Below, in pieces: positions 9,999 through 22,588 of a stretch of DNA of 64,000 nucleotides. Source of the DNA: Desulforadius tongensis (GTDB taxonomy: Bacteria; Bacillota; Desulfotomaculia; Desulfotomaculales; Desulfohalotomaculaceae); the NCBI RefSeq assembly GCF_016907915.1, contig NZ_JAFBCW010000006.1:1-64000 (forward strand). The letters run 5' to 3'. The stretch's first letter is position 1. Every line of letters begins with the position of its first letter. A program made the position numbers and the translations under genes. The notes beneath the pieces are model-generated. The model made no database searches, was not told the DNA's origin, and was given only the letters and a program-made list of their open reading frames with translations.

Positions 9999-10841
<843 letters not shown>

Positions 10842-10901
10842 TTATTTTGGTTATCAACCGCCTGTTTCCCGGCGGAACTCCCTCTGGTTAGAACACCCCA
10901 C

Positions 10902-10955
10902 AAAATAAAAAAAGGGGCTTTTCCAAGCGTTGTTTGATACCTTGGAATAGCACCC
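10902..10955 (-). terminator. Intrinsic terminator in the nif leader (attenuator)
   Basis: On the minus strand TTCCAAG (10947-10941) pairs with CTTGGAA (10927-10921). The stem extends imperfectly (GGGTGCTA against AAGCCCC) and is followed by CCCCTTTTTTTATTTT. It sits between the nif promoter and nifH, so readthrough must be allowed for nif expression. This is the expected layout of a transcription attenuator. Confidence 0.65.
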
Positions 10956-11010
10956 TCGCTTCATAAGGGAACAATACGTCCCGTGTAACCACGCTGCATA
11001 GTGGTTGTAT

Positions 11011-11151
11011 GGCACCTTTACCCTTAAATAAGTAAATCCCCCAGGAAAACATTTCCTGCGGGCATCTTTGCCTTTAAAAAGTCATAAAGCCCGCAGGGAC
11101 ATCTCCCCTGCAGGCTTCTTCGCCTTAACTGCGTGCTCTTCTTTGATGCAC
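11011..11151 (-). promoter_or_regulatory. Periodic hexaloop hairpins in the nif leader
   Basis: Three small hairpins on the minus strand share the plan GGC-hexaloop-GCC: GAAGAA (11124-11113), AAAGAT (11072-11061) and AAAGGT (11022-11011, with one wobble pair). They are 50-52 nt apart. Each is followed by a larger hairpin, for example GCAGGG/CCCTGC at 11111-11093. A fourth stem, GTGC/GCAC, is at 11151-11133 with AAAGAAG in its loop. ANTAR antiterminators bind tandem hexaloop hairpins with A at position 1 and G at position 4; two of the three loops fit. No ANTAR protein is encoded in this window. Confidence 0.5.
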
Positions 11152-11178
11152 TTAATTTAGTTTGTTACCTTGCAGCTT

Positions 11179-11207
11179 ATTATAAATCTACATGGCACTC
11201 CTTGCAA
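11179..11207 (-). promoter_or_regulatory. Sigma-A-type promoter of the nif operon
   Basis: Minus strand TTGCAA (11207-11202), 17 bp, then a perfect TATAAT (11184-11179). Transcription would start near 11172, giving a leader of about 345 nt before nifH. No correctly spaced -24/-12 (sigma-54) site was found. Confidence 0.7.
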
Positions 11208-12514: not shown

Positions 12515-13402
12515 CTAAAAACTATCGATGCTTCTAACGTAACCGCTCTTTAATAGGTAATTGACCAGATCATGTAATATCTTGACGTTTCCACCTTCAA
12601 TTTTTACCCCAAGTTCCAGTCGGTTCCCCAAACCGTATTCGGTTAAATTAGCACTTCCTAAATATGCAACCTTACCCTTATCCGCTATAATCATCTTGGC
12701 ATGAAAATCGAAAAAATTCCCTTCCGATTCATTCTTGGATTGGTACAGATAAAGCTTTATACGGGAACGTAGGTCCTTCTTTTTCACTTCAATAAGAAAC
12801 GGTTCGAGGGCTTCCATATTATCCCTTCTTTCCCCCGTTAGGTATCTGGTTATTATCCTTACCTTAACACCCCTCTGCATGCTATATATTAAAGCATTTT
12901 TCAGTTCTTGAACTGCATAACGGTCGAAAAAGGGATTAAGAATTATCAGCTCTTCTTCAGCATTCGATATAATACAGTGAAGTTCGGAAAAAATCGGAAG
13001 TACTTCGGCTACCCTTATTCTTCTGATACACCTGTAATCATCCGGTATATTTCCCATCAGCACGTATCTATTATCGGGTATTAGTCTGTCTTCCAGTTCC
13101 CCGAGATTATTAATTATCACCTCCGCCTCCGACACATTCCTTAGAAGCTCGAGCTTATTTTTTAACCGGTAAGCAATTTGATCCGAACTGACATGATCCT
13201 TAACAATATCAATTATTCCCTTCCTTTTTAGCTCCAGTACGAAGGTGTAAATTAGGGGGTCGTCTCCCTCATTGAAGTATCGAAGTATTTCCCCGACCGT
13301 AAAGCAATTCTTTTTCTCACCGCCTAAGTACAGAATGATACCGCTCAATCTTTGGAGAAGTTTCGGTCTGCTTCTAAATGCCATTGCCAAATTAACGCTC
13401 AT
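12515..13402 (-). CDS. drmC: DrmC, phospholipase D-like DISARM protein
   Basis: A 295-aa protein with one HKD motif of the phospholipase D/nuclease superfamily, FHAKMIIADKGKVAYLGSANLTEYG, located in the last third. The N-terminal part looks like a winged-helix segment (FTVGEILRYFN, LIYTFVLELKRKGI). DrmC is a DISARM component that was found not essential for protection in the described Bacillus system. Its start overlaps the drmB stop by four bases, implying translational coupling. Confidence 0.85.
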   Translation of the reverse strand: MSVNLAMAFRSRPKLLQRLSGIILYLGGEKKNCFTVGEILRYFNEGDDPLIYTFVLELKRKGIIDIVKDHVSSDQIAYRLKNKLELLRNVSEAEVIINNLGELEDRLIPDNRYVLMGNIPDDYRCIRRIRVAEVLPIFSELHCIISNAEEELIILNPFFDRYAVQELKNALIYSMQRGVKVRIITRYLTGERRDNMEALEPFLIEVKKKDLRSRIKLYLYQSKNESEGNFFDFHAKMIIADKGKVAYLGSANLTEYGLGNRLELGVKIEGGNVKILHDLVNYLLKSGYVRSIDSF

Positions 13403-15255
13403 CTACGAAACGCACCCTTCAGGTTCTCCCAGAAGCCTTTAATCTTTCTTCCATTTAATTCTCCTCCATATAGAAACACCCGGCCCAGCTGTCTGTTAAA
13501 ATATGAACAGGTGATTTCAGGTAGATGCATACAACCGTGACACGATCCGCCTTTAGAAATGCATACGGGATCGTAAACGCAAAGTCTGAGTTCCGGGTCA
13601 AGGCATTTCTCCATCAATTCCGCAAGACTTTGTTCAAATAGAGTATGAAAGCCACCTATGGTAAATACCGTCTTGTTACTGTAAATTACAAAGGAAAGTT
13701 CCCGTGGAAATATGTATTCCGCCATTCCCATCTTCTCGAAGCCGCTTATCAGCGAAGCCGCCCCTATAAAGCAGTGGGAGAGGGAATGCAGTAGGTTAAA
13801 AACGTAATATGTAACTTCATCTTCTTCATTTAGCATCGCATATCTATCAATATTAGCTATATTCTGTAGGTAATGCATCTTCAGCTTAGCTTTATCGGAA
13901 TTATACAGATTAACAGAAAGACCGTTGCCCTTTAACCATTCTGTAACTGCTAGGGGATCAAGTCTAAATAAAAGTGCTTCCGTTCCTCCCCTATCAACGT
14001 AAACGGGTACCCTTCCGTCCCTACGTCTAGGAAATGCTTTAATAACAGTTTCTATATTCCTTCCGTTACGGTTGTCTACCGGTTCAAATGATACCCTCGT
14101 ATACCCGAAAACAGCCGTAATAACCGGAAATTCTTCTATAAGGTGAATGTCCTCAAAACCGAACTTTTTAACCGCATCCTCTGCTGCTAAAAGTATCCCT
14201 TCACTGCCGGGTCGCTCTTTTCTTAATCTTTCCGCCCGTTGACTTATGTTTTCGTTTTTAAGCTTATTGAGAACAAAAGTATATTCGCTAAGCTCCGTAA
14301 AACCGGTATCGTCTATCCCTTCCGTATTAATTTTGCCTATATCGTTATCTTTTTCTATTTTTGATTTAATTTTTGTGAGTTCTTCCTCTAAGTATTCCTT
14401 TACCGGCTCGGGCAACTCCGGGTTTTTAAGCTCACGTTCGTAAGTTTCCATTTTATTTCTTTCTTCTTTAGTTAGGACAGATCTTGGTGATCTTAACCCC
14501 AAATATTCTGACATAATCCATTTCTTTTTATCAATATCAGCAACAGATATTCCGTCGCCTACATCTACCAGCCTTATATAATGCGGGTAATACGTTAAGT
14601 TGGCTCTGTGAGGAGTAAGAACCATACTACAATCTTCTTTACCCTTAGAAGAACATTTCACGCACCTCTTAAATACAGGAGCAATTTCTGCATTACATTT
14701 CAGGCATACCCATCTGAAATCTCTGGCCTTCTGGCTCCTTCTTTCGTCCAGAGCTATGTGATTATAACCGTGTTTGTTACACCCGTACGGAATGCTTAAC
14801 GGCTCTATTTCACCGCATTGGTGTACGAACACGTGATAGATCTGCCTTAGTCTTCCATTATCACCGCAGTTATGATTGCATATCACCCCAGGGTTTCTGG
14901 CCTTCAACTTCTCATGTGATTCGTACTGATAAACCCTACCGCATTTTATACATCTGAATACAAGGGGAAAAATATCAAACCTTACGTTCTCTGGTTCTTC
15001 GAAAATAAACCCGTTATAATCGGAATAAAAATCTTTCTTATCCGGAAATCCTATAACCCTTCCTTTAGACCACCTGGGGTTAGAAGACGTGCCGTAAATA
15101 TATCTTCCTATTTCCTGTAGTATTCTTTTTTCATTTATGTTTCTCTCCTCAATCCCATCTATATCCGTCACAATACAAATAACGTTACCGCCATCGTAAT
15201 CAAATGTGGTACCGGGCAGGTAATTGTATAAAACCTGCTGCTTGCCTCTATTCAT
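13399..15255 (-). CDS. drmB: DrmB, DUF1998 DISARM protein
   Basis: A 618-aa protein with several zinc-binding-like cysteine groups: FRCIKCGRVYQ near residue 98, VCLKCNAEI and RCVKC near 185, and a C-terminal CVYDPVCISKGGSCHGC near 565. The last is the hallmark of DUF1998. DrmA and DrmB form a complex that engages DNA in DISARM (known for the family). The gene is flanked by drmA and drmC in the standard order, 38 bp after drmA. Confidence 0.88.
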   Translation of the reverse strand: MNRGKQQVLYNYLPGTTFDYDGGNVICIVTDIDGIEERNINEKRILQEIGRYIYGTSSNPRWSKGRVIGFPDKKDFYSDYNGFIFEEPENVRFDIFPLVFRCIKCGRVYQYESHEKLKARNPGVICNHNCGDNGRLRQIYHVFVHQCGEIEPLSIPYGCNKHGYNHIALDERRSQKARDFRWVCLKCNAEIAPVFKRCVKCSSKGKEDCSMVLTPHRANLTYYPHYIRLVDVGDGISVADIDKKKWIMSEYLGLRSPRSVLTKEERNKMETYERELKNPELPEPVKEYLEEELTKIKSKIEKDNDIGKINTEGIDDTGFTELSEYTFVLNKLKNENISQRAERLRKERPGSEGILLAAEDAVKKFGFEDIHLIEEFPVITAVFGYTRVSFEPVDNRNGRNIETVIKAFPRRRDGRVPVYVDRGGTEALLFRLDPLAVTEWLKGNGLSVNLYNSDKAKLKMHYLQNIANIDRYAMLNEEDEVTYYVFNLLHSLSHCFIGAASLISGFEKMGMAEYIFPRELSFVIYSNKTVFTIGGFHTLFEQSLAELMEKCLDPELRLCVYDPVCISKGGSCHGCMHLPEITCSYFNRQLGRVFLYGGELNGRKIKGFWENLKGAFRR

Positions 15256-15293
15256 ACCGTTTTACCACCCCTCCTAAATTAAATCACACTATT

Positions 15294-18200
15294 TTATTTC
15301 CTTAATAGTTGTTTTAAAAGGCTTCTTACCCTATAACTTTCAGTAAAATATATAGGCTCGTCCGTATCCCTAAGGCTTCTCATCGGTTTATGAATTAACG
15401 GCGGGTAACCTAAAGCTAACGGTAGACTTTCTTTTGTTCTTTCGTTTGCAAGTATGTATACAATATCCGTCAGTTTTTTATCAATTTCACTTTTAAATTC
15501 GCTTCCCGGGGGTAGATCGGTTCTGTAGGCATCGTGTAAATACTCCTTAACTTCATCCATATCGAGCGAGGAAATTACCGGATACCATGCTTTCTTTTTA
15601 AACAAACTCTTATTATGTAGTCTTGAATACCTGTTCAGTATGAGGGCACTGAATATCCCGGGCAGGGTTTTATCGATACTGAACTTTGACCATCTATTTA
15701 TAGCCGGAGGCTCTACTAATCTCTCCGTATATTCGTGATATTTAGAAAAATAATGATAGTGACTTCTATCCCTCTCTCTAGCTGGTGCAAAACAGATAAT
15801 CGATATTCCGGGACTTTTTCTTCCAACACGGCTGGAAGCCTGGATATATTCGGCCGTTTGCCTGGGCATGCCGAAAAAGACCATGAAATTGAATCTTTCG
15901 ATATCCACACCGTGGCTGATCATGCTCGTAGCGGTAACGGATCTAATTCTGTCCTCGGGCTTTTTATTTTTGTAGTCCTCCTGCATTTCCTTGAGTAATG
16001 CGGTAATGCGATATCCCTCGGTACCGCCCGTCATCATTTCATTTCTTACCGCAGTATATCCGTCTCTGGTCAGATAGAGGTTGATCTGACTGGCAATACT
16101 CTCCGCTACCTGATCCCCTCCCCTTTTCGTAAGAACGTACGTCAGGCTAACCTCATACTCATCCAGAATTTCTTCCACCTGCTTATCGTATAGCGATTCC
16201 GTTACTCCTATAGCATCCGCAAATTCGGCAGCGGAAAGCTTCCTTAACCTCTGAATTTCTCTGTGGAAGTACCACAGTATTTCAACCGTAGAGTTGATGT
16301 GCGTTTTGTTATGAGGCATTATCCCTAGAAAGTATCTTCCTATCCTCCCGGTATCCGTATCGCTGTAAAAGGACTCCTCCCATGAAGGACCCGGTACCGG
16401 AAATCTATAGGGCTCATCCCTGCAGTATAGTTGATCTACGTGATATTCGTAACGCTTTATGGTGGCCGTCGATGCTATGTTCTTCCAGGCCCTACCGCCG
16501 GATATATCCTTCTGCATTTTTACGATAAACGTCTCGTAATGAGAATCAAAAGCCCCCAGTTCTTCCTTTACAAGGTGGATCTCATCCTGAACCTGCAGGG
16601 TCGGTACCATTAGCCGTTTTACGGAATCATCAACCCTTGCCACCTTTCTTCCGCCGCAATACCGGCATTTATCTTCCCATAGGTATCCATGCTTATCGCA
16701 TTTATATCTTACGTCTCCGAACAGGTTGCCAAATTTGGTCTGATAACCGCATAGTGCTATCTTATCAACCGTAGATACTATTACCGTAGGCAGGTATCTG
16801 TATATTTCGTCGTCAACAATGTATATAGGCAGTGCCCTACCTCCCCAGCTGCAAACGGTACTGTCGGAGGTACATTCATGTACCAGTCTCCACTCATCAA
16901 AATCAAATCTGATTTTAACGCTTTCCCTGCCGCAGAAGGGACATACGTGTACCTTTCTGTATTTTTTATCCCTATCGGGATCATCATTAATTTGTTCTGC
17001 ATTCGATCTATAATAAATATTATTTTGCGTTTGGCTACTGCCTACCCAAAGACCAACGCTGAAGGGTTCACCCTTTATTGCTCTTTCCTCCCTAATCAGT
17101 TCCGCAGCACCTATAATTCCCGTAAGTCTTTCCAGCTGCTGGGCGCTAAGAAGCCTTAAAGGAAATCTGAACAGTGCCGTTAATCCGGCAGTCTTTCCTC
17201 TTAACCTGTCAAAGAAGGCATTACATATCGTTAGGCCCAGATATGCCTCCGTCTTCCCGCCGCCCGTGGGAAACCATAACACCACTGGACTTTCAATAGA
17301 ATTACTATCCTTAAAATCATCCGTCCAATGCTGGGCGGCAAGGTCGGGCAGCTGGGAAACTATAAACACCAGCTGGAACGGTCGCCACCCCTCGTATCCC
17401 CTTCCGGCAATTTCGTTCTTTTTTATAAAGGCCTCGTTCATTACCCTAAATGCTTTATTTAGCATTTCATACTTATGATTTTTCAGTACTTCTATTCCCT
17501 TTTTATACCTATCGATTTCTGCCCTGAAGTTATCCAGATCCCGTTTAAATTCCTCTTCATACCTTGCATCCTTCAAAAATTCGTTCTTATTTGCTTCCCA
17601 GTACCCGTAATAATCCTCCATATCTTTCAAAAGTTCCTCTAAAACATTTATCGGGTCATCGCTTAAACTCCGAAAGGTTAACTCCGTCAGCTTTCTACCT
17701 CCTATTTTTTTAGGAAGTTGAGTCCTGGTACCGTACCTTTTCTGTCTCACCACCGGTGCATTAACAGTTTTTAATCCTCTGCCGTGGTCATCCCCGTAAA
17801 GCGGCTCAACGGTACAGTTTAGTCCTATCGCCGGCATTATAGTATCGTATCTATAACTATCCTTTAGAGAATTAAACTCGAAAGGTATTAACTCCGCAGA
17901 AACAAACGATGTCTCGATAGAAGCATCAAATATAAAGCTATCCTCCATCTTCTCGGTACCGACGGGATCCCTATCCTCTCCAGTATTAACCAGTAAAACC
18001 TTTAAAAGGTAAACATCATTTTCAACGGGATTAAGCTCGATATGCAGTTCGAACTTCCATTTCGGCAGGTTCACATCTCCATGCGTCGCATCCCTAATTA
18101 GTTCGTTAAAAAATTCTTCGTATTTATCAGGACTCTCATCTGGATTCTTGGACAGCTTCCTTTCGGGTATTTTTTTGAATGCCTTAGAATCTCTTTTGAT

Positions 18201-18713
18201 TTCTTCATAAATGTCTTCCATAACCCGCTTAAACGGTTCGTCGGAAGAACTTATTATTTTTTTACCTTCCCTTATCAGTAATGATAAATTTACAGTTATA
18301 AAAGGAAAATTCGGTCTTAAACGCTTAAATACCACCGCCAGTTCCCTGGCTCCCTTTATCCTTTTCTGTTGTTCCAAATCGGGAACTATTCTGTAATATA
18401 GGGACATATTAGGTCTGATTTTTAGCATCGCATCCCGGTTGCTGATTTTCAACCTGCACTCGAAACCGAGTGCATAGGGAGAAAGTCTGGAATGAAACTC
18501 GGATCTCAGTTCGTTTTCCGACAGTTCTACTTCCGATACGGCAGAATTGGGTCTCAGGCTCCCGACAAAATAGGTGTCTCTGGGACGTTCGTAAAGACAG
18601 TACTCTCCATCCTCACCCTTACCCGATCCCGAAGTGCATTCGGTAATCCTTTTAATTAAATATTCACATAATTTCTCCTTTACGGCATATTCATCGGCCT
18701 TCGATAAGCTCAT
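15294..18713 (-). CDS. drmA: DrmA, DISARM helicase
   Basis: A 1139-aa superfamily 2 helicase. Walker A FPTGGGKTEAYLG lies near residue 481, a DEIH box (QVQDEIHLVKE) near 708, and motif VI-like IQASSRVGRKSPG near 959, preceded by SMISHGVDIERF. A four-cysteine zinc-like group (HVCPFCGRE, YKCDKHGY, CRYCGGRK) lies between the two helicase halves. DrmA is the DNA translocase or unwinding core of DISARM. It lies 14 bp after drmE. The composition of this region is AT-richer than the nif and cob regions, which suggests horizontal acquisition; this was judged by eye. Confidence 0.92.
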   Translation of the reverse strand: MSLSKADEYAVKEKLCEYLIKRITECTSGSGKGEDGEYCLYERPRDTYFVGSLRPNSAVSEVELSENELRSEFHSRLSPYALGFECRLKISNRDAMLKIRPNMSLYYRIVPDLEQQKRIKGARELAVVFKRLRPNFPFITVNLSLLIREGKKIISSSDEPFKRVMEDIYEEIKRDSKAFKKIPERKLSKNPDESPDKYEEFFNELIRDATHGDVNLPKWKFELHIELNPVENDVYLLKVLLVNTGEDRDPVGTEKMEDSFIFDASIETSFVSAELIPFEFNSLKDSYRYDTIMPAIGLNCTVEPLYGDDHGRGLKTVNAPVVRQKRYGTRTQLPKKIGGRKLTELTFRSLSDDPINVLEELLKDMEDYYGYWEANKNEFLKDARYEEEFKRDLDNFRAEIDRYKKGIEVLKNHKYEMLNKAFRVMNEAFIKKNEIAGRGYEGWRPFQLVFIVSQLPDLAAQHWTDDFKDSNSIESPVVLWFPTGGGKTEAYLGLTICNAFFDRLRGKTAGLTALFRFPLRLLSAQQLERLTGIIGAAELIREERAIKGEPFSVGLWVGSSQTQNNIYYRSNAEQINDDPDRDKKYRKVHVCPFCGRESVKIRFDFDEWRLVHECTSDSTVCSWGGRALPIYIVDDEIYRYLPTVIVSTVDKIALCGYQTKFGNLFGDVRYKCDKHGYLWEDKCRYCGGRKVARVDDSVKRLMVPTLQVQDEIHLVKEELGAFDSHYETFIVKMQKDISGGRAWKNIASTATIKRYEYHVDQLYCRDEPYRFPVPGPSWEESFYSDTDTGRIGRYFLGIMPHNKTHINSTVEILWYFHREIQRLRKLSAAEFADAIGVTESLYDKQVEEILDEYEVSLTYVLTKRGGDQVAESIASQINLYLTRDGYTAVRNEMMTGGTEGYRITALLKEMQEDYKNKKPEDRIRSVTATSMISHGVDIERFNFMVFFGMPRQTAEYIQASSRVGRKSPGISIICFAPARERDRSHYHYFSKYHEYTERLVEPPAINRWSKFSIDKTLPGIFSALILNRYSRLHNKSLFKKKAWYPVISSLDMDEVKEYLHDAYRTDLPPGSEFKSEIDKKLTDIVYILANERTKESLPLALGYPPLIHKPMRSLRDTDEPIYFTESYRVRSLLKQLLRK

Positions 18714-18727
18714 AAAATATCCCCCCT

Positions 18728-21247
18728 TTAAACCGTAAAAATTATTCCCGTATATCCGGGCTTTACGTACTTTATTGCTTCGGATATTTCCTCTATCGTT
18801 TTAACCGTTAAAGCATCCCTAAAATCAGCCATGGATAACCCCCACTCTACAAGTTCGTCATCTGGTTCGACTAATAAGTTAGTTGAAGAAGAAGCTATTA
18901 TGACCCTATTAAGCTGTACTGCTACCACCCTATGAATCCTTCTCAGCCTCTTCATGGCCCGGTATATCATCTTCCAGCTCTTCGTTAGCTCGTCCAACCC
19001 CAATACGATTCCTAACCTTTTTATATCCTCGGGATCTTCAGGCCCCATAACATCTCCCCTGATCCAGTTACCGATAGTCGCGGAAGATGTTATGCGGCTT
19101 CCTAAACGTACGAGCATACTATGAATTTCTTCATATGTTAACCCTCTTCTGTAAAATGCATCGTTGATACTTCTCTGCCAGAATCTGATATACTTCGTAT
19201 CCAGATCTACCTGCGGCTGTTCTTCATTTTTTTCTAATATCAGGTCGTACAGGCTGTTCCTGGCATTACCCCTGATTATAACTACCCTATCGCCAGCCTT
19301 TAATTTTTTTACCTTAATGCTATAAATAGCTCCGCTAACTCCTTCAATTTTCTTTAGATTATCGTCGGCGGCGCAGAACATTCTGCTCCCGTCCGTAAAT
19401 ATAATTTCCCTTGCTTCTACGGTATGAGTACCGCTACGGTGTACCGCCTCTCCTCCCCGTACGGAAAAGAGCGGTATAAGGCCGTCTTCGCTAATTGAAG
19501 TAGCAACTCCAGACAGCATAGCAAGCAGGTCCGAGTGCAAGCCTGTTTTTCTAACCTTATCACCCAGAATATTCGATACGGCATCTGCCAGTTCTCTCAA
19601 AAAATCTTCGTCTTCTTCAAATACCTTTGCTTTTAAAAGAAATTCTTTCTTATTACGTCCCGTTTGGATGATTCTGTTTCTAACCCCCTGCAGCATAATC
19701 TTAAGGCCACGCATTTCCTCATCATACAGAACCATTATCGTTCCCTTAGCAGGCGGTATCAGAATGATTTCCGGTAATTTAATCCAATCAATTCCGGTAA
19801 TAACAACCGTATCGGGATTAACGCCATCATTATGTAGCTCTTTAACCAGCCGTTTTAGGCCCTTATAGGAAGTTACGTATAAACCCGCTCCTTCAGGACC
19901 ATACTTTTCCCACCCGAATTTTTCGGAGAGAAATTTTTTCAAAGCCATGGCCGATGTAGCATTAATTGTAACAATAATCGTTTTGAGCCCCGATTCCACC
20001 TGTCTATTAACAATATTCAGAATATTATTCATCTTCTCGTTGTTCTCATCCAGCAGTTCGTTAATCCTATGAAATACTCTGCTCGTCTCGTAAATAAGAA
20101 CCTTCATGTCTCCATCATCCAAATACATCGTACGGGATACCGATGTAAGTTCATCCAGCAGGTCCAAAATGGTGAAGGTATTTCCCGTTTTTCCAGCAAT
20201 AATATCGTATAATTCCGGTTTTACAGGAAGCTCCATAAGCATTCTGTATGCATACGAAGCCCTTCTGATAACTTCTTTAACCTCCCTACCGTAATCGAAT
20301 TTCTTAAGAAGCTTTAACATTTTCCTTAAATTCTTACCTAATTCGTTAAAATCCTTATCAAGGCGATCTTCACACCTGATTATCATCGGCATCCTGCGCT
20401 TCTTCATATTTCGGATCTCATAAATCCCCGAAGAAAACGGGGAATTTTTGCCGCCGTCACAAATGTCGCATTTATTCTCATGTGCCCTTATCATTCCGGA
20501 AGACCAAAGAAATACCTCGGCATCGCCGTTACGTACCTTCGGAATTCTATAATCGGTTATATTATCAAAAATATGTATAATCGGAATACTTCCATCACCT
20601 ACCACGGGGTCACTCTCTCTAATGTGAGAATAATCGCAGAGTATATAGTCGCATTTCGGGCAGCGGTTTACTACATCGGGTGATGAAGAAAGGTAAAATA
20701 CGGGAGACTGTCCGTCGTATCTTCCGAAGTAATCGCGGCTACCGATTATCGATACGTTTCCGTCCTTACGTACATAACCGGCAGGAAAAAAATAGTGCAC
20801 GGGTAGTTTTTGCGGAATTCTTTCCCTTATATACCTTTTTTTAATATAATAACTCCAGTACAGGTGACAGTTATAGGGATCATCCATATTCAAGTCTAAA
20901 CCTTTCTTATACTCGTCTATAAGAAGGTTAATCTTTCTAATAGAAAGTTTCATAACATCTTCAACGTAAATGTATGTTTTTTCAAGAAATTTTCTTATAA
21001 CGCTGGATCTTGCGATAAGCAGCATACTAGGACGTTTCTTGGGATCCTTTTTGGTAGGAATATTTACGGTGTAGTCATGCAGTACTAATTCTATAGCAAG
21101 GGGTACGATTAGATAACCGAACGGTCCGGCAATTACGGAACTCCTTCCTTTTTCATATATCTTCTTACAGTAATCTATAGTTACAGTTTCGAATTCGTGA
21201 AGATTGATTTCTTCATCACGGTAAGTTAACCGGTAAATTCTTCCCAA
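18728..21247 (-). CDS. drmE: DrmE, class 2 DISARM protein of unknown function
   Basis: An 839-aa protein without an obvious catalytic motif. It has a cysteine cluster RCPKCDYILCDY near residue 192 and CDICDGG near 258, a central region with alternating strands and helices (TIIVTINATSAMALKKFL, TVVITGIDWIK), and a late segment SSATIGNWIRGDV. Identity is assigned mainly by position and size: class 2 DISARM has drmE directly before drmA together with a cytosine methyltransferase. Biochemical function is unknown. Confidence 0.75.
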   Translation of the reverse strand: MGRIYRLTYRDEEINLHEFETVTIDYCKKIYEKGRSSVIAGPFGYLIVPLAIELVLHDYTVNIPTKKDPKKRPSMLLIARSSVIRKFLEKTYIYVEDVMKLSIRKINLLIDEYKKGLDLNMDDPYNCHLYWSYYIKKRYIRERIPQKLPVHYFFPAGYVRKDGNVSIIGSRDYFGRYDGQSPVFYLSSSPDVVNRCPKCDYILCDYSHIRESDPVVGDGSIPIIHIFDNITDYRIPKVRNGDAEVFLWSSGMIRAHENKCDICDGGKNSPFSSGIYEIRNMKKRRMPMIIRCEDRLDKDFNELGKNLRKMLKLLKKFDYGREVKEVIRRASYAYRMLMELPVKPELYDIIAGKTGNTFTILDLLDELTSVSRTMYLDDGDMKVLIYETSRVFHRINELLDENNEKMNNILNIVNRQVESGLKTIIVTINATSAMALKKFLSEKFGWEKYGPEGAGLYVTSYKGLKRLVKELHNDGVNPDTVVITGIDWIKLPEIILIPPAKGTIMVLYDEEMRGLKIMLQGVRNRIIQTGRNKKEFLLKAKVFEEDEDFLRELADAVSNILGDKVRKTGLHSDLLAMLSGVATSISEDGLIPLFSVRGGEAVHRSGTHTVEAREIIFTDGSRMFCAADDNLKKIEGVSGAIYSIKVKKLKAGDRVVIIRGNARNSLYDLILEKNEEQPQVDLDTKYIRFWQRSINDAFYRRGLTYEEIHSMLVRLGSRITSSATIGNWIRGDVMGPEDPEDIKRLGIVLGLDELTKSWKMIYRAMKRLRRIHRVVAVQLNRVIIASSSTNLLVEPDDELVEWGLSMADFRDALTVKTIEEISEAIKYVKPGYTGIIFTV

Positions 21248-21439
21248 AACCCACTCGTCTCCCTCTCTAATTTATAAAACTTATTATTTCTTGTTATATA
21301 ATTCTCAAATACATGTTAAAATCCTTCTGCTTTTGGCAATTAATGTAACTTATCCGGAAATTTTTTAAAATAATAAAAAATATGTAAATATAAGCAGCAA
21401 TGAGGTAGTAAATGGATAGCAATAAAAAAAGAAGGACTT
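21248..21439. other. Intergenic, DISARM methyltransferase to drmE
   Basis: AT-rich 190 bp with no gene. A promoter for drmE may lie here, but no clear -35/-10 pair was identified. Confidence 0.3.
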
Positions 21440-22588
21440 TTACACATCCTTCTCAATATCCTTCCTAATACATTCAAAAAAAGTTCTTCCCATTTTTACC
21501 GGTACCGCATTACCGATCTGTAATGCTATCTTACCGAAAGAACCGGTAAATTTGTAATCCGGCGGAAATGTTTGTATTAGAGCAGCCTCCCTTAGGCTTA
21601 TTGCCCTGTCCTCGACGGGATGACCGAATCTACCTTTCGAAATCGTACAGCATCCGCCGGTTAATGTCGGGGCAACCTTATTATAATCCATACGCCCGTA
21701 TACATCCTTATATCCAACCCCCCTTTTTTTATGACATTTTAACCATAACTCTATTTGCTCACCCTTATCATTCCGTACGGTTTGCGGCCAATCCGTTCTG
21801 CTACCACCGTTCTTGGGCGTGTATTTCATCCGAAGAAGATTTAACTCGCTTAAGTTAGCCGCTCTATGCAATTTATCTTCCTTACATGTCTCACCCGCTT
21901 TAATTTTTTTTAGGTGGCTTATCGTTTCCTTGAGGGTGACCCATTTTTTTAACCCGCAGTCTTCTGTCAATAATTCGGGATTTATATGGGTTGGTTTTGC
22001 AAAAATACTTTCAGCTTCGCTCTCATTTAACGCAATATCCCTTCTTTTACCGATCAATACGAAGCGTAATCTGTTTTGAGGAACCCCGTAATCAGCCGCA
22101 TTCACGACATCATAATGCACATAGTATAACGGCCTATCCTTCCTTCCCCATCCCGTCTCAAGCAGTTCTATAAATTTATCAAATATATATTTATGCCTCT
22201 GTATCCCGGGAACATTTTCCATAAAAATATATTTAGGTTTTAGTAACCTTACCATTCTATAATACTGAAATACCAGATAATTTCTTAAATCCTTTTTTCC
22301 TTTTTTTACATTCTGTTTAGAAAAGCCCTGACAGGGAGGACATCCCGCAAGAAGATCCAGTTCCCCAGGTGTAACTCCGCAGGCCGATATCAAATCCTCT
22401 AACGTAACTTTTCTTATATCATTAATAATAATTTTACTACTATAATTTAGTTTATAACTTTCCGCTATAACTTCGTCTAATTCTATACCGCACAAAACGT
22501 TAAAACCGGCATCCTTAAGAGCACAGGTAATACCGCCTGCTCCGCTAAAAATGTCAATGGCAGTTGGTTTTATACTCTCGCTAGACAT
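21440..22588 (-). CDS. drmMII: DrmMII, DNA cytosine-C5 methyltransferase
   Basis: A 382-aa C5-cytosine methyltransferase. Motifs run in order: I DIFSGAGG, IV GCPPCQGFS with the catalytic Cys, VI MENVPG, VIII PQNRLRFVLIG, IX in RMDYNKVAPTLTGG, X QIGNAVPV. In class 2 DISARM this enzyme marks host DNA so the restriction machinery spares it. It is the first gene of the DISARM cluster on the minus strand. The paired presence with a T/G glycosylase 10 kb away is notable. The target recognition region lies between motifs VIII and IX. Confidence 0.92.
   Translation of the reverse strand: MSSESIKPTAIDIFSGAGGITCALKDAGFNVLCGIELDEVIAESYKLNYSSKIIINDIRKVTLEDLISACGVTPGELDLLAGCPPCQGFSKQNVKKGKKDLRNYLVFQYYRMVRLLKPKYIFMENVPGIQRHKYIFDKFIELLETGWGRKDRPLYYVHYDVVNAADYGVPQNRLRFVLIGKRRDIALNESEAESIFAKPTHINPELLTEDCGLKKWVTLKETISHLKKIKAGETCKEDKLHRAANLSELNLLRMKYTPKNGGSRTDWPQTVRNDKGEQIELWLKCHKKRGVGYKDVYGRMDYNKVAPTLTGGCCTISKGRFGHPVEDRAISLREAALIQTFPPDYKFTGSFGKIALQIGNAVPVKMGRTFFECIRKDIEKDV

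Follow-up and report, generated by a model that had tools for sequence, protein, structure and literature searches.

A probable serial ANTAR transcription-attenuation leader before nifH in Desulforadius tongensis

How is nitrogenase transcription governed at a locus where repeated hexaloop hairpins and terminator-like stems lie between the promoter and nifH? An initial annotation had proposed an ANTAR antitermination switch for this leader of Desulforadius tongensis. We analyzed the leader within a 64,000-nt stretch of genomic DNA (hereafter the window) and compared it with the nif leaders of its order. From sequence comparison, we consider it probable (roughly 85%) that the leader is a serial ANTAR transcription-attenuation array before nifH.

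Anatomy of the leader

Features are listed in the direction of transcription, T1, T2, and T4 being the terminators and R2 the covariance model described below.

11179..11207, minus strand: sigma-A-like promoter TTGCAA-17-TATAAT, 10/12 consensus match
11133..11151, minus strand: module 1 P1 hairpin GUGC(A)UC-AAAGAA-GAGCAC, one bulged A
11113..11124, minus strand: module 1 P2 hairpin GGC-GAAGAA-GCC, 3' arm common to T1 (R2 match 11113-11151, 10.8 bits)
11086..11118, minus strand: terminator T1, -24.3 kcal/mol, U tract interrupted
11061..11072, minus strand: module 2 P2 hairpin GGC-AAAGAT-GCC, without canonical P1 (R2 match 11061-11085, 12.8 bits)
11038..11063, minus strand: terminator T2, -14.8 kcal/mol, weak U tract
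11011..11022, minus strand: module 3 P2 hairpin GGU-AAAGGU-GCC (R2 match 11011-11054, 4.1 bits)
10978..11015, minus strand: module 3 decayed terminator-like stem, -10.5 kcal/mol, without U tract, fold no better than shuffles (z -0.39)
10967..10982, minus strand: module 4 degenerate P1, hairpin GGGAC-GUAUU-GUUCC in the P1 place, five-base loop
10949..10960, minus strand: module 4 P2 hairpin AGC-GAGGGU-GCU, 3' arm common to T4
10907..10957, minus strand: strong terminator T4 (stem 10957-10914, then U7)
9999..10826, minus strand: nifH, first gene 3' of the leader, 91% identity to NifH of named relatives

The promoter proposed by the initial annotation was found, and from it we infer a transcription start near 11172. 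The leader would then span about 346 nt to the nifH ATG at 10826, in agreement with the earlier estimate of about 345 nt. No sigma-54-like promoter was matched in 520 nt of the leader strand, although the genome has sigma-54. The leader folded about 4 SD better than 100 shuffles (z -3.95). It holds four P2-type hexaloop hairpins (purine at loop position 1, G4), with 5' ends at 11124, 11072, 11022, and 10960, against 0.77 expected; at least four occurred in 0.6% and at least three in 3.7% of 3000 dinucleotide shuffles. The first three, spaced 52 and 50 nt apart and each followed by a larger stem (11118-11086, 11063-11038, and 11015-10978), are those originally described, as is the strong terminator, which ends in U7 and lies 81 nt rather than 75 nt before nifH. 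While all three larger stems are present, the third unit carries no real terminator. The fourth P2 hairpin on T4, the terminator-like T1, the P1 of module 1, and the apparent duplication of modules 1 and 2 had not been described. Nor are the GGC hairpins three separate units that replace a pair: each is the P2 of one module in a succession, the canonical unit being a P1-P2 pair.

Two hexaloop stem-loops of at least 3 bp joined by a linker were found in module 1 only, modules 2 and 3 consisting of a P2 without canonical P1. Loop position 4 is G in all four P2 loops and in the P1 of module 1, while position 1 is A in that P1 and in the P2 of modules 2 and 3, and G in the P2 of modules 1 and 4. 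The 3' arm of every P2 sits within the 5' arm of a larger stem, namely T1, the weak T2, the decayed stem, and the strong T4. In free folds this larger stem or terminator was favored over the P2 form by 7.7, 3.5, 2.4, and 11.3 kcal/mol in modules 1, 2, 3, and 4, which fits a requirement for a protein to hold P2. In modules 1, 2, and 4, P2 formation is incompatible with the intrinsic terminator that it overlaps, and forcing P2 costs 7.7, 3.5, and 11.3 kcal/mol; this does not apply to module 3, whose stem contains a nested inner stem at 11006-10987. The U tracts of T1 and T2 are imperfect, leaving T4 as the strong terminator. Modules 1 and 2 align with a score of 42 against 14.6 ± 3.0 in shuffles, 0 of 1000 scoring as high, and look like duplicates.

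A further hairpin, CCGCC-GGGAAACA-GGCGG (10853-10870, minus strand), lies between T4 and the nifH start. Elsewhere in the window, a DISARM-like defense set on the minus strand (12515-22588; DrmC, DrmB, DrmA, DrmE, and a C5 methyltransferase with DrmMII-type matches) adjoins the nif cluster, and a CRISPR array with nine or more repeats of Rfam type CRISPR-DR2 occupies 720-1279, also on the minus strand.

Modules in the nif leaders of the order

Of the 113 genomes of the order, 55 proved to have nifH. The 56 nifH loci yielded 55 leaders of sufficient length, 49 of them nonredundant; one locus at a contig end (L159) was dropped as too short. Terminators were counted if they lay within 420 nt of nifH, were at most 60 nt long, and folded at -12 kcal/mol or better. 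On the 5' arm of 59 of the 81 terminators so defined we found a P2 hairpin (purine at position 1, G4), compared with 6.9 ± 2.4 (maximum 14) in 200 shuffles of the upstream stretch. A P1 with G4 preceded 42 of these 59 modules (shuffles 6.4 ± 2.5, maximum 15) and was not found before the other 17, though the strict rules overlook some. These counts, which replaced earlier descriptor scans that missed or mispaired many P1 hairpins, are independent of the covariance models, though the rules were set after the leaders had been inspected. When the best hexaloop was picked without loop rules, G4 was retained in 57 of 64 loops, and position 1 was A in 37, G in 23, C in 3, and T in 1. G1, represented here by GAAGAA and GAGGGT, is thus a common variant in the order.

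Under the strict rules, 0, 1, 2, and 3 modules were counted in 8, 24, 16, and 1 of the 49 leaders. Only one module is counted by these rules in the leader of the window, T1 being lost via its U tract and T4 via the pairing strength or length of its P2. The last terminator before nifH bears a P2 in most leaders of the order, and in 15 of 44 leaders a sigma-A-like promoter (10/12) was located 30 to 170 nt upstream of the first terminator (shuffles 1.3 ± 1.0, maximum 4). In the same-genus genome G001, nifH is preceded by three P1-P2-terminator modules (loops ATTGAT/AGAGAC, AATGTT/ATTGAG, and AATGCA/AATGAG), the third P2 having two clear pairs only; nifH was not found in a second genome of the genus, G002. 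Given the three-module layout of G001, the array in the window is a partly eroded or rebuilt form of the layout in its genus.

These comparisons bear on how many modules are at work. ANTAR control could act through module 1 only (P1-P2-T1), modules 2 and 3 being decaying, functionless duplicates and T4 an unregulated, leaky brake. The confinement of a canonical P1 to module 1, the apparent duplication of modules 1 and 2, and the module 3 fold, which does not surpass shuffles, would all agree with this, as would the reported loss of EutV antitermination upon lengthening of the P1-P2 linker by 20 nt (PMC8934654). We nevertheless consider it unlikely, since the P2 of module 4 is placed on T4 exactly as in relatives, most of which carry a P2 on the last terminator, and a permanently closed strong T4 would defeat nif expression. 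Modules with no P1 found are also not peculiar to this leader (17 of 59 elsewhere, though the strict rules miss some). A relay would fit the report that the dimer binds single hexaloops in turn (PMC8934654): the P1 of module 1 would be the sole landing site of an ANTAR dimer, which would then pass along the P2s, spaced about 50 to 60 nt, so that one recruitment takes polymerase past several terminators. Such a relay appears very unlikely, as P1 was not enriched in first modules of the order relative to later ones (14/17 vs. 14/18) and the same report describes antitermination by EutV as abolished by a linker 20 nt longer.

A separate observation concerns terminator apices. The apex of T2, CAGGA-AATGTT-TTCCTG, is able to form an A1/G4 hexaloop, and across the order G4 occurs in 8 of 13 six-base apex loops (nif leaders L039, L134, L136, L157, L158, L164, L169, and L172) and in 9 of 25 four-base apex loops opened by one pair. 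It is as if a further ANTAR-like hexaloop were present at the terminator apex, a post hoc impression from a small sample.

For an assessment by covariance model, R1 was built on three elements from named relatives, and R2 on 30 R1 matches in 47 relative loci with the own genome excluded; some of the 30 may be false. A 13-element MAFFT seed, whose P1 arm was broken by the alignment, was not used. Applied to 801 bases around the leader, R2 placed 11061-11085 first (12.8 bits), 11113-11151 second (10.8 bits), and 11011-11054 third (4.1 bits), so that a model built without this genome ranks the three units of the initial annotation 1, 2, and 3. The scores are modest, good relatives reaching 25 to 38 bits. 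On the leader strand, 0, 1, 2, and 3 matches (E up to 5) were obtained in 5, 12, 28, and 11 of the 56 loci, after dropping 2 of 103 matches that lay elsewhere. In the 49 nonredundant loci the corresponding numbers were 4, 11, 23, and 11, counts that are partly circular, R2 having been applied to the same leaders. With at least two matches in 34 of these 49 leaders and three in 11, the suggestion that three units would be unusual was not borne out, within that same circularity. Among the 63 best R2 matches, P1 covariation amounted to 47 cells changed on both sides against 13.9 in shuffles, and G4 was invariant in both loops, in an alignment fitted to the model. R2 matches within 500 nt upstream on the gene strand (E up to 5) were present at 11 of 20 Bacillota-type loci, 2 of 3 titled "bacterium" only, and 1 of 57 others among 80 named nifH loci; groups were set by record title, and L048, titled Armatimonadetes, was counted as Bacillota-type.

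An attenuation switch of another kind (leader peptide, T-box, or riboswitch), with the hexaloops incidental, is suggested by the presence of terminators and by two overlapping ORFs of 53 to 54 codons that cross the leader. Neither ORF has an evident ribosome-binding site or regulatory codon run, and a leader peptide was rejected for want of a convincing ORF. An Rfam search of the leader returned no match at the gathering score and nothing plausible at E up to 10, including no ANTAR-type family. Together with hexaloop placement conserved across the order, this renders such a switch highly improbable. In a search of the whole D. tongensis genome, 15 R2 matches were recorded, the nif leader not among them, and a 14-base hairpin pattern allowing one mismatch gave 80 matches vs. 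121 for its reversed control; with no excess, the hairpin alone is not specific. Chance hairpins beside ordinary terminators, with no regulation, would be compatible with that lack of excess, with the shortness of the hairpins, and with the 3.7% of shuffles that hold at least three, yet this is scarcely credible given placement on terminators and order-wide conservation far above shuffles.

ANTAR proteins and elements elsewhere in the genome

The search for an ANTAR response regulator recommended by the initial annotation identified three ANTAR proteins, all above the Pfam cut-off and all adjoining nitrogen-assimilation genes, whose names (glutamine synthetase, glnB, glutamate-synthase-like) were read from translations.

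Contig C19 (locus L001, 1471-2082, minus strand): REC-ANTAR protein, before a glutamine synthetase gene (glnA)
Contig C11: ANTAR protein L003, before glnB
Contig C45 (locus L175, 3429-3992, minus strand): ANTAR protein L002, before a second glutamine synthetase gene, followed by a glutamate-synthase-like gene

Of the 15 R2 matches in the genome, seven were inspected by sequence (six plus the top one). Similar elements with a terminator occur upstream of the glnA and glnB genes, in the interval separating two glnA genes, and downstream of the glutamate-synthase-like gene; an R2 match also precedes asnB, and those on contigs C44 and C5 fall inside ORFs. Directly after one element and terminator, the contig end at L175 1-75 (minus strand) bears what we take to resemble the 5' end of a group II intron. 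The receiver domain of L002 is degenerate, below the Pfam cut-off, and has Ser at the Asp place.

ANTAR genes were present in 99 of the 113 genomes of the order; among the 55 nifH genomes the count was 53. The two nifH genomes with no ANTAR protein detected are G081, which still has nif-leader modules (L157), and G099; missing sequence is the likely cause. Among 30 homologs of the glnA-linked ANTAR protein (L191-L220, own included), the place of the phosphorylated Asp is Glu in 17, Asp in 11, His in 1, and Gln in 1. Phosphorylation may therefore not be the signal for this protein; the frequent Glu points to phosphorylation-independent control or to a constitutive form. G4 is reported to stack on Tyr164 of EutV (PMC8934654), and at the aligned place all 30 homologs have Phe.

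Proposed mechanism and known systems

The ANTAR reading draws on the placement of P2 and P1 over shuffles, G4 conservation, P1 covariation, the array of G001, the presence of ANTAR genes and elements at nitrogen genes, the ANTAR genes of nearly all nifH genomes of the order, and the lack of a sigma-54-like match on the leader strand. The claim of the initial annotation is well supported by hairpins and terminators conserved across the order, the covariance model, and the three ANTAR proteins. Weighing against it are the weak R2 scores here, the bulged and lone canonical P1, G1 loops, imperfect U tracts, the decay of module 3, the failure of the genome-wide R2 search to list the nif leader, and the negative Rfam result.

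In the scheme that we infer, from start site and termination to binding, the acting ANTAR protein, and the nitrogen signal, RNA polymerase would start at the sigma-A promoter and meet T1, T2, and T4 before nifH, a further stem having decayed. The 5' arm of each terminator would double as the source of the P2 3' arm. Under nitrogen sufficiency the terminators would form, halting transcription within the leader. Under nitrogen shortage, P1 and then P2 would be bound as each emerges by an active ANTAR dimer, following the EutV model, and a P2 so held would block the terminator, letting polymerase reach nifH. Modules 2 to 4 would presumably respond despite having no canonical P1. Terminators in series would multiply, lowering leak.

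Serial ANTAR attenuation would place nitrogenase control in much of the order at transcript elongation, via an RNA-binding nitrogen regulator and not a sigma-54/NifA promoter, with serial ANTAR attenuators as the customary arrangement in its nif leaders. The more useful result is this lineage-wide pattern of serial modules as the rule, G1 loops, and regulators without the phosphorylated Asp. The variety of modules (complete, P1-less, and decayed) provides natural test pieces for the need for P1 and the combined action of serial attenuators, and glnA-linked ANTAR proteins that often have no phosphorylated aspartate raise the question of how nitrogen is sensed.

NasR/nasF and AmiR/ami resemble the present array in pairing a two-hairpin RNA with a terminator at nitrogen genes and differ in being single loci, not known to have more than one element per leader. 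ANTAR elements at nitrogenase operons, several per operon, have been known since 2012, when PMC3369931 defined the element and reported it at nitrogenase units of Pelobacter carbinolicus; for Desulfotomaculum acetoxidans, the same paper gave a minimum of 13 elements distributed over six transcription units. A term search of the main text of PMC8164766 returned no mention of nitrogenase or tandem sites, and in the open-licence literature searched, which does not imply absence beyond it, no description of nif leaders with serial ANTAR modules was recognized. The P. carbinolicus and D. acetoxidans elements resemble ours in element kind, gene kind, and an average of more than one element per unit; unlike ours, they come from a genome-wide model search, and the text concerned (PMC3369931) gives neither nif-leader layout nor lineage-wide serial spacing. 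EutV/eut of Enterococcus faecalis shares G4 hexaloops, P1 then P2, overlap of P2 with an intrinsic terminator, genome-encoded REC-ANTAR proteins, and several terminators per system (PMC3369931, PMC8934654), EutV being reported to bind one hexaloop at a time, with P1 then P2 proposed (PMC8934654). In contrast to that system, no cognate kinase was identified here, G1 loops occur, modules 2 to 4 have no canonical P1, and a single leader upstream of nifH contains the terminators in series.
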